From a bacterium (lineage in GTDB: Bacteria > UBP7 > UBA6624): 5,161 nt of DNA. Where the stretch lies: positions 1 through 5,161 of the forward strand of contig JACNFQ010000085.1 in NCBI GenBank assembly GCA_014384545.1, given 5' to 3'. Position 1 is the stretch's first letter; every line of letters begins with the position of its first letter. The position numbers and the translations under genes are program-made. Shown in pieces: positions 1,734-5,027 of this stretch. The notes under the pieces were generated by a model. It ran no database searches. It was not told the origin of the DNA and saw only the letters and a program-made list of their open reading frames with translations.

Positions 1734-2789
1734 CTGCGTTTGATTCTACTAGGGGGGGCTCTATTGGGCATACAATCGGACGCTGTGCCGCGAAATCTTT
1801 TTTCTTGGTGGTTGACCCTCTTTTTTGGGGCGTTTGTATTGACATCTTATACGATTGCAATCACCCGGCATCCGCCCATTAGACCCCCCCTTCGTTCCTC
1901 TGGAATGGAGAGCATACCCCTTGAGAACAAGGAAGAATCAACGAGAGACCACCGCCCCGGAAAGATAATCTTATCCGACCCCTCCCTTTCCGAGCCGTAT
2001 GGCGTTGTACGCGTGGGTGATAAGTTGGTTTTGGTTGATGCGAATCGGTCGTCGGGGAGAGGAGTCGTTAGGGTGTTTAGCATGGTGACCCAAGACGCTT
2101 TGCCCTCTCTTGCCCAGGGATTCCGATTCCCTGCAGGACTCGCTTTGTGGTCAAACGAACGCCTTCTTTTGGTGGACAATGGGGGTGGTGGCTCGCTCAT
2201 CCTGTTGGGGGCAGAAGGGGAAGAAAAGCGCCTGAGTGATCCACTTGACGACCCCAAAGATGTCGCTGCGGATGTGGGAAGGGGCAGGATCTTCGTTGCC
2301 GACAGGGGGAATAATCGAGTCCTAGTGTTGGACGAGGATTTTGTAACGATAGACTCTTGGGCTCCACCCGATGACCACTTTGTGCCCAATGGTCTCGCAT
2401 TGGGGCACCAAGGGCGACTCTTTGTATCCGACAAGGCAGGAGCGAGGGTGTGGGTCTTTTCTAGGGAGGGCAAAGTAGAAGGATCTTGGGGGCGTTCGGG
2501 GCGAGACATGCCTGAAGAGATGGCGTTGCCTGGCGGGGTAGCGGTTGACCCTTGGGGACGCGTCTATGTCGCAGATTACGCCCGGGATTCAATTCATGTC
2601 TTTTCTAGAGAAGGGGACCACATTGGATTGATGGGGGGAGAGGAAGCGAATGATCCTTCTTTTGGTCGACCCCGTGGACTCTTTTACGATGCCGTCTCTG
2701 GGCGGCTTTTGGTGACGGGGGGCGACCGGCAATTGAATGTAGCCCGAGTTTGGAGTTTGCCCCTTTGGCAACTAGGTTCAGCGGAATGA
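1713..2789 (+). CDS. Membrane-anchored NHL-repeat six-bladed beta-propeller protein
   Basis: Function unknown. Read from ATG 1713 it has 358 residues: a basic N-terminus (MRRRRC), hydrophobic stretches at about 8-20 and 31-50 (SWWLTLFFGAFVLTSYTIAI) that look like a signal anchor, a polar proline-rich linker at about 51-90, then six NHL-type repeats. The repeats lie at about 95-122, 139-166, 181-206, 225-250, 272-297 and 319-347; the best are DPKDVAAD..GRIFVADRGNNRVLVL and LPGGVAVDPWGRVYVADYARDSIHVF. Six repeats suit a complete propeller, a fold used for protein or ligand binding, probably outside the cytoplasmic membrane. The start is unsettled: ATG 1713 overlaps the first 21 bp of purM on the other strand, while TTG 1764 follows a G-rich, Shine-Dalgarno-like run (1751-1758) and would avoid the overlap. 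The frame stays open back to 1518, but that part is antisense to conserved purM codons. Its TGA overlaps the ATG of the next gene. Confidence 0.85.
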   Translation: MRRRRCHLRLILLGGALLGIQSDAVPRNLFSWWLTLFFGAFVLTSYTIAITRHPPIRPPLRSSGMESIPLENKEESTRDHRPGKIILSDPSLSEPYGVVRVGDKLVLVDANRSSGRGVVRVFSMVTQDALPSLAQGFRFPAGLALWSNERLLLVDNGGGGSLILLGAEGEEKRLSDPLDDPKDVAADVGRGRIFVADRGNNRVLVLDEDFVTIDSWAPPDDHFVPNGLALGHQGRLFVSDKAGARVWVFSREGKVEGSWGRSGRDMPEEMALPGGVAVDPWGRVYVADYARDSIHVFSREGDHIGLMGGEEANDPSFGRPRGLFYDAVSGRLLVTGGDRQLNVARVWSLPLWQLGSAE

Positions 2790-2908
2790 AAAAGGGGACT
2801 TTCAACTGGGGGGCATTGGGGGCAGGGGTGATCCTCTTTCTAGCGGTCCTTCTGGGCGTAAAGACTTCTTTGCTCTTTATGGCTTGGGTTGGTGCAACGG
2901 GCGGATGA
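2786..2908 (+). CDS. 40-residue hydrophobic microprotein
   Basis: Unrecognised small protein, missed by length cut-offs. It starts MKKGTFNWGALGAGVILFL and ends MAWVGATGG. After a basic N-terminus (Lys2, Lys3), residues 9-39 are almost wholly hydrophobic or small, with one lysine at 26, so it could be one long transmembrane helix, a short helical hairpin or an uncleaved signal-like peptide. Position is the strongest support: its ATG overlaps the TGA of the NHL-repeat gene (ATGA at 2786-2789) and its TGA overlaps the ATG of the LarA-like gene (ATGA at 2905-2908). It exactly fills the gap between two real genes, as expected of a translationally coupled member of the operon. Upstream Shine-Dalgarno signals are weak, which also fits coupling. 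The alternative is a non-functional spacer ORF that only passes ribosomes to the next gene. No function can be assigned. Confidence 0.65.
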   Translation: MKKGTFNWGALGAGVILFLAVLLGVKTSLLFMAWVGATGG

Positions 2909-4170
2909 CTGATTTCAAGTTTGGGAGCAAGAAGATTCCCTTTTCTTGGCCCCGTGGGTGGGATGTCTCATCTTGGCTTCCTGAAGACCGTCCCGTTTTC
3001 CAAGAAGAGGGTGAGATCGTTATTGATGCGTTGGATGCGCCTTTTGGCTCTTTGCCTTTGGCAGAGGTCCTTGATAAGGACGATCGGATTCTGGTCGTCG
3101 TTCCTGATGAAAACCGAAACCCTCGCCTTGATGTGATTCTCCCAATTCTCCTAAAAAGAATCCAGCTAAGGAAACCGAAAAGAGTAGAGATCCTCGTGGT
3201 GGGGGAGGGGGGTGTTCGACCTCGGGTCAGTGATGCATTCTTAGCTAAGTTGGGGAGTTGGGATGGGTGTGATGATGTGCACCTCCACGAGCCATCTGAA
3301 GTGGTCTCGGACGGGTTGAAAGAGGAATCAGTATTGGGAACAACAATCGCTGTCAACCCCCTCATATTGGAAGCTGATAAAGTGATTGTGGTCGATCAAA
3401 TGAACTTCCACGATATGTTGGGGTACACCGGTGGAGGAGAGGGAGTTTCCTTAGGGGCATCGGGGTGGGAAACCGTTAGGCAGAATCGATCTTTGGTCTT
3501 TGACAAGAAGGGTCGAAGACATACAAGAGCTGCGGCTGCCCGAATGAATGGGAACCCTGTTTTTGAGGATGCTCAAGAAATCGCCCAGTTACTCAATCCC
3601 GATTTCGTAATCAACGCCGTCTTGGGCATTGACCAACGCATTACCCGTGTTTTTTGTGGGGATGTCGGTTCTTCCCATGTGGAGGGAAGCCGCATCATGA
3701 TGGGGTTTTTCCGCATGCGTGTTCCTCGAAAAAAGACGATCTTTGTCTCTGCGGGGGGGGCTCCCAATGATGATTCCTTTCTCTCGGTGATGAAAGGAAT
3801 ACAGTATTGGTATCGGGTCGTCCGTCCCAAGGGGACTTTGGTGGTGGGCGCAGCCTGTACGCTTGGGTTGGGCAACGACAAGTTGGCGAAGTGGTTGGCG
3901 ATGCCACCCACAGAAGTCCGTAAGGTCGTTGCTAATCGTGAGAGTTTTGACCCCCTTGCGTATGCGGTTCTCTGTTTGAGAGAAGCCCAACACCATTGTC
4001 GCATACTCTTGTGGTCGGATATGAATCCTGAAGAAGTTCGGTTTACCGGTTGCGTACCCATCAAGAATCTCCCTGAAGCATTCTTGATGGTGCGCAAGGA
4101 TACCAAGGAGGGGTTGCCTCAGGTAGGGTGGGTGCCAAGTGCAAACCAAACCTTGGGTATTCCTGGCTGA
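2905..4170 (+). CDS. LarA-like protein (lactate racemase family, Lar_N/DUF2088) with altered active site
   Basis: Member of the LarA family, whose founder is the nickel-pincer-dependent lactate racemase. From ATG 2905 it has 421 residues, close to LarA's. Visible family landmarks: ALDAPFGSLPLAEVL at 42-56, VPDENRNP at 66-73 (LarA DHTRP motif; Asp68 and Arg71 match Asp72 and Arg75), EADKVIVVDQMNFHDMLGYTGGGEGV around 156-181, INAVLGIDQRI at 236-246 and VMKGI at 295-299 (Lys297). Compared with Lactiplantibacillus LarA recalled from memory, spacing is identical from the DxxR motif to position 195. His174 is kept (His169), but His108 becomes Val104, the cofactor-bearing Lys184 becomes Glu179 and His200 becomes Arg195. 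It is therefore unlikely to be a lactate racemase; substrate and cofactor are unknown. No larB, larC or larE is in the window. TTG 2884 is an alternative start, but ATG 2905 overlaps the microprotein stop and is preferred. smpB begins 4 bp downstream. Confidence 0.88.
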   Translation: MTDFKFGSKKIPFSWPRGWDVSSWLPEDRPVFQEEGEIVIDALDAPFGSLPLAEVLDKDDRILVVVPDENRNPRLDVILPILLKRIQLRKPKRVEILVVGEGGVRPRVSDAFLAKLGSWDGCDDVHLHEPSEVVSDGLKEESVLGTTIAVNPLILEADKVIVVDQMNFHDMLGYTGGGEGVSLGASGWETVRQNRSLVFDKKGRRHTRAAAARMNGNPVFEDAQEIAQLLNPDFVINAVLGIDQRITRVFCGDVGSSHVEGSRIMMGFFRMRVPRKKTIFVSAGGAPNDDSFLSVMKGIQYWYRVVRPKGTLVVGAACTLGLGNDKLAKWLAMPPTEVRKVVANRESFDPLAYAVLCLREAQHHCRILLWSDMNPEEVRFTGCVPIKNLPEAFLMVRKDTKEGLPQVGWVPSANQTLGIPG

Positions 4171-4174
4171 GGAA

Positions 4175-4630
4175 ATGACGAAAGTCTTTGCCAGAAACAA
4201 ACGCGCCCCCTATCTTTACGAGATTACAGAGACGTGGGAGGCAGGCCTTTCGTTAGAAGGGTGGGAAGCGCGTTCAACGCGCGAAGGGCGTATGAGTATC
4301 AATCTTGCCCACGCCCGCATTAGGGACGGCGAGGTTTGGTTGGTGGGAGCACATATCGCCCCCTTGCCCCATTCCAGCGCAAGGCAAGATGCCACACGCG
4401 ACCGTAGGCTGTTGCTCCATGGAAGAGAGATTCGAGACCTAGAGCGAAAGACCGAGCCTAAGGGGATGGCACTCGTTCCGCTTAGAGCCTATGGAAAACG
4501 AGGTGTTATCAAAATCAAGTTGGCGTTGGGGAAGGGTAGGGGGAAGGCTGACAAGAGGGACCGTATCCTTGAGAAAATTGATAGAGCAGACGCCAAAGAT
4601 GCGGCAAACAGAGCGATGGGCAGGGGTTGA
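4175..4630 (+). CDS. smpB: SsrA-binding protein SmpB
   Basis: Binds the tRNA-like domain of tmRNA and delivers it, with EF-Tu, to ribosomes stalled without a codon in the A site, so that nascent chains are tagged for proteolysis. The 151 residues match the family. Landmarks: ARNKRAPYLYEITETWEAGLSLEGWEARS at 6-34 in two adjoining blocks, ARIRDGEVWLVGAHIAPL at 47-64, RRLLLHGREI at 77-86, KGMALVPLRAYGKRG at 96-110 and VIKIKLALGKGRGKADKRD at 111-129. The basic C-terminal tail (about 130-151) is the part that enters the mRNA channel in known SmpB. ATG 4175 gives the usual short lead before the NKRA motif; a TGAGGA run sits only 1 nt before it, so coupling to the LarA-like stop 4 bp upstream may matter more. 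GTG 4139, overlapping the previous gene, is an alternative. Its RNA partner ssrA lies 44 bp downstream, a common arrangement. Confidence 0.97.
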   Translation: MTKVFARNKRAPYLYEITETWEAGLSLEGWEARSTREGRMSINLAHARIRDGEVWLVGAHIAPLPHSSARQDATRDRRLLLHGREIRDLERKTEPKGMALVPLRAYGKRGVIKIKLALGKGRGKADKRDRILEKIDRADAKDAANRAMGRG

Positions 4631-4674: not shown

Positions 4675-5027
4675 GGGGGCGATTTGGAATCGACGAGAGT
4701 TGGAACGGTCGCACCGCAAGCAGGTTTGTCGTCAGCCTTAATGGCGACAAAAATAAAGGCCAACAACAGCGCCTACGCTCTCGCCGCCTAGTTTCTAGGC
4801 TGGCTCTAAGGAGCGCCCCGGCATCTGATGCCAGAAGGAAGCCAAGGGGTTCATATACTGGCTGTGGGGACGGAGATCGCCTTCCGACCTGTCCTCAAGA
4901 TTTAGGAAGGTGCAACCGGAGCCCAGCTGTCCGTGGCTCGCTAACCGGTACAACCACGGACTAAGCTTGTAGAAGTGTAGCCTTGGAAAATGATCGGACC
5001 CGGGTTCAAATCCCGGCGCCTCCACCA
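4675..5027 (+). ncRNA. ssrA: Transfer-messenger RNA (tmRNA, one-piece)
   Basis: Acts as tRNA and then mRNA to release stalled ribosomes and add a degradation tag. The RNA is 353 nt including an encoded CCA at 5025-5027. The acceptor stem pairs 4675-4681 (GGGGGCG) with 5017-5023 (CGCCTCC): seven pairs, one of them G-U, with discriminator A at 5024. The T arm is 5000-5004 with 5012-5016 around a TTCAAAT loop. The 5' D-like segment reads GATTTGGAATCGACG, matching the conserved GGATTCGACG of other tmRNAs, and the 3' side carries GGACTAAGCTTGTAGA, like the E. coli GACTAAGCATGTAGT segment. The sequence between holds the tag frame and pseudoknot helices, for example 4929-4936 with 4954-4961 (eight pairs). 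Unlike alpha-proteobacterial or cyanobacterial two-piece forms, both ends lie in normal order in one gene. It follows smpB by 44 bp. Confidence 0.97.
4759..4791 (+). other. tmRNA tag-peptide reading frame (ANNSAYALAA)
   Basis: The resume codon is taken as GCC 4759, by comparison with the E. coli GCA resume site and its A-rich upstream context; here the upstream run is ACAAAAATAAAG. The frame reads Ala-Asn-Asn-Ser-Ala-Tyr-Ala-Leu-Ala-Ala followed by a single TAG at 4789-4791. The ending YALAA is the classic ClpXP/ClpAP recognition end. The stop codon lies in a perfect 6-bp hairpin (4786-4791 with 4795-4800, TTT loop), in the place of the helix that follows the tag in other tmRNAs. Confidence 0.9.

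Follow-up and report, generated by a model that had tools for sequence, protein, structure and literature searches.

A LarA-family protein of UBP7 bacteria with conserved glutamate and arginine at the pincer-lysine and nickel-histidine positions

Results

The LarA-like gene and its neighbours

The window, by which we mean the whole stretch of DNA analysed, is an entire contig of 5,161 bases (G000:C33) belonging to a 1.39-Mb draft genome; the UBP7 comparison set comprises three genomes of two genera, that of the window (G000) together with G001 and G002. All three share one gene order: folP and purM on one strand; on the other, genes for an NHL-repeat protein, a 40-residue peptide, a LarA-like protein and SmpB. 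Coordinates are collected in Table 1.

Table 1. Genes, RNA and active-site codons of the window. Residues are numbered in the window protein, with the LarA counterpart given in the first column.
Feature	Position	Strand	Remarks
NHL-repeat beta-propeller protein	1785..2789	+	hydrophobic N-terminal segment; GTG start inferred from G001 orthologue
40-aa ORF, single membrane span	2786..2908	+	overlaps both neighbours (ATGA at each junction); conserved in G001 and G002
LarA-like CDS, 421 aa	2905..4170	+	ATG start, TGA stop
Asp68 (LarA Asp72)	3106..3108	+	ribose contact, kept; role from PMC12611868
Arg71 (LarA Arg75)	3115..3117	+	NPN phosphate / substrate carboxylate, kept; role from PMC12611868
Val104 (LarA catalytic His108)	3214..3216	+	His lost; Asn aligned in the two orthologues
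DQxNFHD motif, residues 164-170	3394..3414	+	surrounds kept catalytic His169 (LarA His174)
Glu179 (LarA pincer Lys184)	3439..3441	+	GAG; Glu in 3/3 UBP7 genomes
Arg195 (LarA nickel ligand His200)	3487..3489	+	CGA; Arg in 3/3 UBP7 genomes
Lys297 (LarA Lys298)	3793..3795	+	kept
smpB	4175..4630	+	starts 4 bp past LarA-like stop; ATGA overlap in G001
tmRNA (ssrA)	4675..5027	+	directly 3' of smpB in the window; tag ANNSAYALAA

The hydrophobic segment of the NHL protein is probably a membrane anchor; the propeller itself, conserved in all three genomes, has weak similarity to proteins of the ScyF/ScyE and SMP-30 types. The 40-residue open reading frame (MKKGTFNWGALGAGVILFLAVLLGVKTSLLFMAWVGATGG) is a new gene call: its stop/start overlaps on both sides are seen in both genera; between G001 and G002 it has diverged with a dN of 0.031 and a dS of 0.76 (dN/dS about 0.04); it has no Pfam match; and a counterpart is present in L032 from about position 4695. 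That the NHL, 40-residue and LarA-like genes form an overlapping run suggests that their products may belong to a membrane complex, though with smpB at the end of the run co-transcription alone is no proof of shared function. The proximity of smpB raised the possibility of a link to trans-translation, which was set aside: the gene is a housekeeping neighbour, and nothing further pointed that way. A scan of promoter and terminator consensus sequences returned nothing exceeding that in shuffled controls.

The protein is a LarA homologue

Membership of the 421-residue protein in the LarA family, first proposed from the sequence alone, was upheld by Pfam, by phmmer and by a profile built from the orthologues. 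The Pfam Lar_N model matches the window protein at an E value of 2.4e-22 (79.6 bits, against a curated cut-off of 23.3) and scores 90 bits with its UBP7 orthologues. In phmmer comparison with PDB sequences the window protein matched the malate racemase Mar2 at 2e-26 and LarA at 5.6e-18; with the profile of the three orthologues these values became 2.8e-39 and 5.6e-28, the near full-length alignment to LarA being significant. Homology thus extends over nearly the whole length of LarA from L. plantarum (PDB 5huq) and of the LarAH5/LarAH6 malate racemases (Mar2, PDB 6d6z). On these comparisons the protein is, by descent, a member of the LarA (Lar_N / DUF2088) superfamily, and the resemblance is not one of chance.

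It is nevertheless distant from the characterised groups. The LarA_C domain scores 13.8, 19.7 and 18.6 bits in the UBP7 trio, under the Pfam cut-off of 25, as against 56-62 bits in canonical relatives. The best NCBIfam models are LarAH6 and LarAH10 (175-182 bits), to which the window protein matches with E values of about 1e-51 and scores of 176 and 175 bits where the cut-offs are 500 and 540; over the LarAH5, LarAH6, LarAH10 and Ni_dep_LarA equivalogs together, scores of 133-176 bits fall well below curated cut-offs of 460-540. Structure predictions made from the three orthologues reached pLDDT values of 49 and 48, too low for mapping of individual residues; when the model at pLDDT 49 was submitted to Foldseek, all matches with E < 0.001 were LarA-family structures, which supports a LarA fold at the level of the fold and not of residue detail.

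Active-site positions

In LarA, Arg75, Lys184 and His200 bind the NPN cofactor and Asp72, His108, His174 and Lys298 are catalytic (PMC7583248); as described in PMC12611868, Asp72 equivalents touch the ribose of the cofactor, and Arg75 equivalents its phosphate and the carboxylate of the substrate. Alignment to 5huq places LarA His174, Lys184 and His200 on His169, Glu179 and Arg195 of the window protein, with the 16-residue spacing between Lys184 and His200 preserved exactly. The interval originally singled out, 3106-3489, runs precisely from the codon for Asp68 through that for Arg195 in the frame opened by the ATG at 2905, and the residues named at the time (Glu179, Arg195, Val104, His169, Asp68, Arg71 and Lys297) all proved right, both in the 5huq alignment and in multiple alignments. 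The claim that this alignment is free of gaps did not survive: offsets to LarA are 4 at Asp72, Arg75 and His108, 5 at His174, Lys184 and His200, and 1 at Lys298, so that the window protein is shorter than LarA by one residue or more between Val104 and His169, and the orthologues have more small gaps.

Like LarA and Mar2, then, the UBP7 proteins retain equivalents of Asp72, Arg75, His174 and Lys298; unlike them, they have Glu for Lys184, Arg for His200, Val or Asn for His108 and Ser or Glu for Gln295, and come from genomes in which we found no NPN pathway (see below). Gln295 is near-invariant among LarA homologues (114/119) and is replaced by Ser294 in the window protein and by Glu in its orthologues. 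One member of the catalytic histidine pair, His169, is present and the other is not. A further change lies close by, where Asp164 occupies a position that is Gly in 102 of 120 LarA homologues.

The replaced residues are shared by both genera

The window protein and its two orthologues, one in each of the three genomes, are 40-41% identical between genera. Glu179, Arg195, Asp68, Arg71, His169 and Lys297 are invariant in all three, and the codons at the two replaced sites differ (GAG, GAG and GAA for Glu179; CGA, AGA and AGG for Arg195), both having changed synonymously between G001 and G002. Reversion of either site to Lys or His in an orthologue had been named beforehand as the result that would count against the sequence-only reading; none was seen. 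That reading had also asked whether Glu179, Arg195 and Val104 are conserved, which held for the first two and not for the third: since position 104 is Asn in the other genus, the loss of His108 is not a fixed replacement. Because only two independent lineages are available for judging the two sites, their shared Glu and Arg is by itself modest evidence of conservation. No orthologues beyond those of G001 and G002 came to light when 2.9 million viral contigs and the contigs of GTDB r220 were searched.

To gauge how rare the two residues are, 122 sequences were retrieved and tabulated together with the window protein (123 rows, some loci having been fetched twice; 119 distinct sequences after length and duplicate filtering). 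The Lys184 column holds K in 118 rows, E in four (the three UBP7 proteins and L016) and T in one; the His200 column holds H in 118, R in three (the UBP7 trio only), L in one and Q in one. Thus, among about 120 LarA homologues from outside UBP7, Glu stands once at the pincer-lysine site and Arg never at the nickel-histidine site. There are 29 columns conserved to at least 85% in the other homologues: the trio keeps 15, varies at ten, and at the remaining four carries the same substitution in all three proteins (Thr70 to Asn, Gly164 to Asp, Lys179 to Glu, His195 to Arg).

The segments around these sites are also more alike between genera than is the protein as a whole: residues 164-179 are identical at 11 of 16 positions (69%) and residues 189-199 at 8 of 11 (73%), as against 40% overall. 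We take this as suggestive of better conservation in the pocket, the p values of 0.02 and 0.03 being nominal, the segments hand-picked around the LarA pocket and the part between them unconserved.

The gene is under purifying selection

Between G001 and G002 the dN/dS of the LarA-like gene is 0.029 by NG86 and 0.036 by YN00, values similar to those of purM (0.045/0.040) and below those of the NHL gene (0.062/0.059) and folP (0.17/0.15). Strong purifying selection acts on the protein, which is retained for a function. A dN/dS of 0.03 between these orthologues is not that of a decaying gene, and decay was rejected on this ground; with Glu179 and Arg195 invariant in the orthologues, the earlier view of a substituted site still under selection stands.

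Genes of the NPN pathway

None of the three UBP7 genomes has a larB, larC or larE gene scoring over cut-off. For LarC, neither the TIGR00299 nor the PF01969 model gave any match in the three genomes, the control genomes giving the matches expected. LarB-like matches scored 35-38 bits where the cut-off is 175, that of the window genome being a 148-residue PurE-type frame; LarE-like matches reached at most 39 bits against 150, and the two inspected read, from their sequences, as NAD synthase and TilS. The genomes are 79, 86 and 62% complete, so LarB, LarC and LarE could in principle escape detection. In the 73 other genomes with LarA homologues, LarC is present in 58 and was not found in 15, most of which are also without a LarB over cut-off. 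Given the incompleteness of the UBP7 genomes and the existence of such negative controls, absence of the pathway is supporting evidence and not proof, and we rejected the absence of LarC as a stand-alone demonstration of NPN loss. Taken with the fixation of Glu179 and Arg195, the absence of LarC and the failure to recognise LarB or LarE in all three genomes support the original proposal that the protein cannot hold the cofactor in the way that LarA does.

Nearly complete genomes with LarA homologues and with neither LarC nor a LarB over cut-off include G047, G322, G194, G242, G325, G056, G370 and G138, among others.

Other homologues with altered sites

Phylogenetic analysis of 61 homologues groups the three UBP7 proteins in one clade (support 100) on a long stem branch of 1.73. 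Its nearest neighbour, with a weak SH-aLRT of 81, is L046, which is also the closest non-UBP7 match of the profile. This protein has His, Gln, Tyr, Gln and Gln at the positions of Asp72, Arg75, His108, His200 and Lys298 and keeps the pincer Lys184; in its genome, G192, LarC is present and no LarB scores over cut-off. A single ancestral loss common to L046 and UBP7 is weakly supported by these data. The L046 gene (L153, 3323-4600, minus strand) lies close downstream of rpoA-rplQ.

L016, from genome G018, resembles the UBP7 proteins in having Glu at Lys184, no His at 108 or 200 and no LarC found, and differs from them in being without Asp72, Arg75, His174 and Lys298 as well. It too sits on a long branch; it is sister (support 99) to L064, where the canonical Lys and His are kept, and the loss in L016 is independent of that in UBP7. 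Departures from the NPN site have thus arisen more than once in the family. The L016 gene occupies 3342-4829 of L154 (minus strand), and LarC was found in neither the L016 nor the L064 genome.

Discussion

Replacement of the pincer Lys and the nickel-binding His by Glu and Arg, in genomes where the cofactor genes were not found, means that the UBP7 protein probably does some other job. We consider it likely that this is an NPN-independent protein of LarA fold, selected for another role and fixed in the UBP7 lineage. Glu179 and Arg195 might pair in a salt bridge or help to line a remodelled pocket, where they and Asp164, Asp170, His169, Asp68, Arg71 and Lys297 would bind a ligand; retention of Asp68, Arg71 and Lys297 makes a small ligand of anionic or nucleotide-like character probable. 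His169 would be the sole remaining acid-base, and the role that of a single-base cofactor-free enzyme or of a ligand-binding module. A place for the protein in a membrane complex with the NHL propeller and the 40-residue peptide is a tentative further step, to which we give somewhat less than an even chance; any specific chemistry that might be assigned to the protein is doubtful.

NPN independence could take either of two forms. The protein may serve the propeller and the peptide as a scaffold or ligand-binding partner with no catalysis of its own, a plausible reading though well short of an even bet: it accords with the conserved, overlapping run shared with two membrane-associated proteins and with positions of the catalytic His108 and of Gln295 that are lost and free to vary, but a scaffold would have no need to keep His169, Lys297, Asp68 and Arg71, and a complex is not proven by gene order in a run co-transcribed with smpB. 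Or, a little less probably, it may be a cofactor-free hydroxy-acid enzyme (an isomerase, lyase or hydratase) in which His169 is the single acid-base, possibly with a metal at Asp164, Asp170 and Glu179. In its favour, His169, Asp68 and Lys297 are retained, new acidic residues are fixed near His169, and there is precedent for LarA proteins with a single catalytic His, albeit in a subfamily that keeps NPN (PMC12611868); on the other hand, the neighbours include no metabolic gene that might indicate a substrate.

There is little likelihood that the protein is still an NPN enzyme, binding its cofactor through other residues or without a covalent bond and drawing it from an undetected pathway. Part of the NPN and catalytic set (Asp68, Arg71, His169, Lys297) is indeed retained, and there are genomes with canonical LarA homologues in which LarB and LarC are not detectable; but both of the contacts specific to NPN, the covalent Lys and the nickel His, are replaced, the Lys by a residue of opposite charge, and LarC is missing by two models from three UBP7 genomes while present in 58 of 73 others. 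Equally improbable is the replacement of NPN by another carrier, in which Asp68 and Arg71 would hold a non-covalent nicotinamide nucleotide, Glu179 would take its carboxamide at the former site of the pincer thioacid and Arg195 the place of the nickel ligand; the protein would then work with the propeller and the small peptide as a redox or isomerase unit bound to the membrane. Least likely is a decaying or recently inactivated racemase: the stem branch before the UBP7 split is long and the formerly invariant positions 104, 183, 184 and 294 vary, but dN/dS is 0.03, frames are intact in two genera, gene order is fixed and the ex-pocket segments are among the better conserved parts.

LarA homologues without NPN residues are already known in general. 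In groups 12, 13 and 16 of Desguin et al. 2020 (PMC7583248) the catalytic and NPN-binding residues are not conserved, and the proteins are described as probably NPN-free; the UBP7 proteins resemble them in this respect, the comparison being with the published description, but their homology to LarA is clear whereas that of the three groups is doubted in the same source. The single-histidine proteins LarASp and LarABw (PDB 9q2u, 9q3j), of which LarASp was purified with NPN, are reported in PMC12611868 to have Asn for His174 and to keep His108, Lys184 and His200. They too have lost one of the two catalytic histidines, but at all four positions the UBP7 pattern is the opposite. In the abstracts and selected sections of the literature searched we found no conserved Lys-to-Glu and His-to-Arg replacement in the absence of an NPN pathway and in a membrane-linked run, and to that extent the Glu/Arg variant of UBP7 appears new.

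For proteins such as these, annotation as 'lactate racemase' on the strength of the Lar_N domain alone would mislead. Few organometallic cofactors are known, NPN among them, and the way in which a family of proteins acquires or sheds a metal cofactor that it tethers covalently is, to our knowledge, not understood. A conserved site of reversed charge with no detectable pathway, together with the independent loss in L016, offers a natural experiment on this question and a short list of proteins worth expressing.
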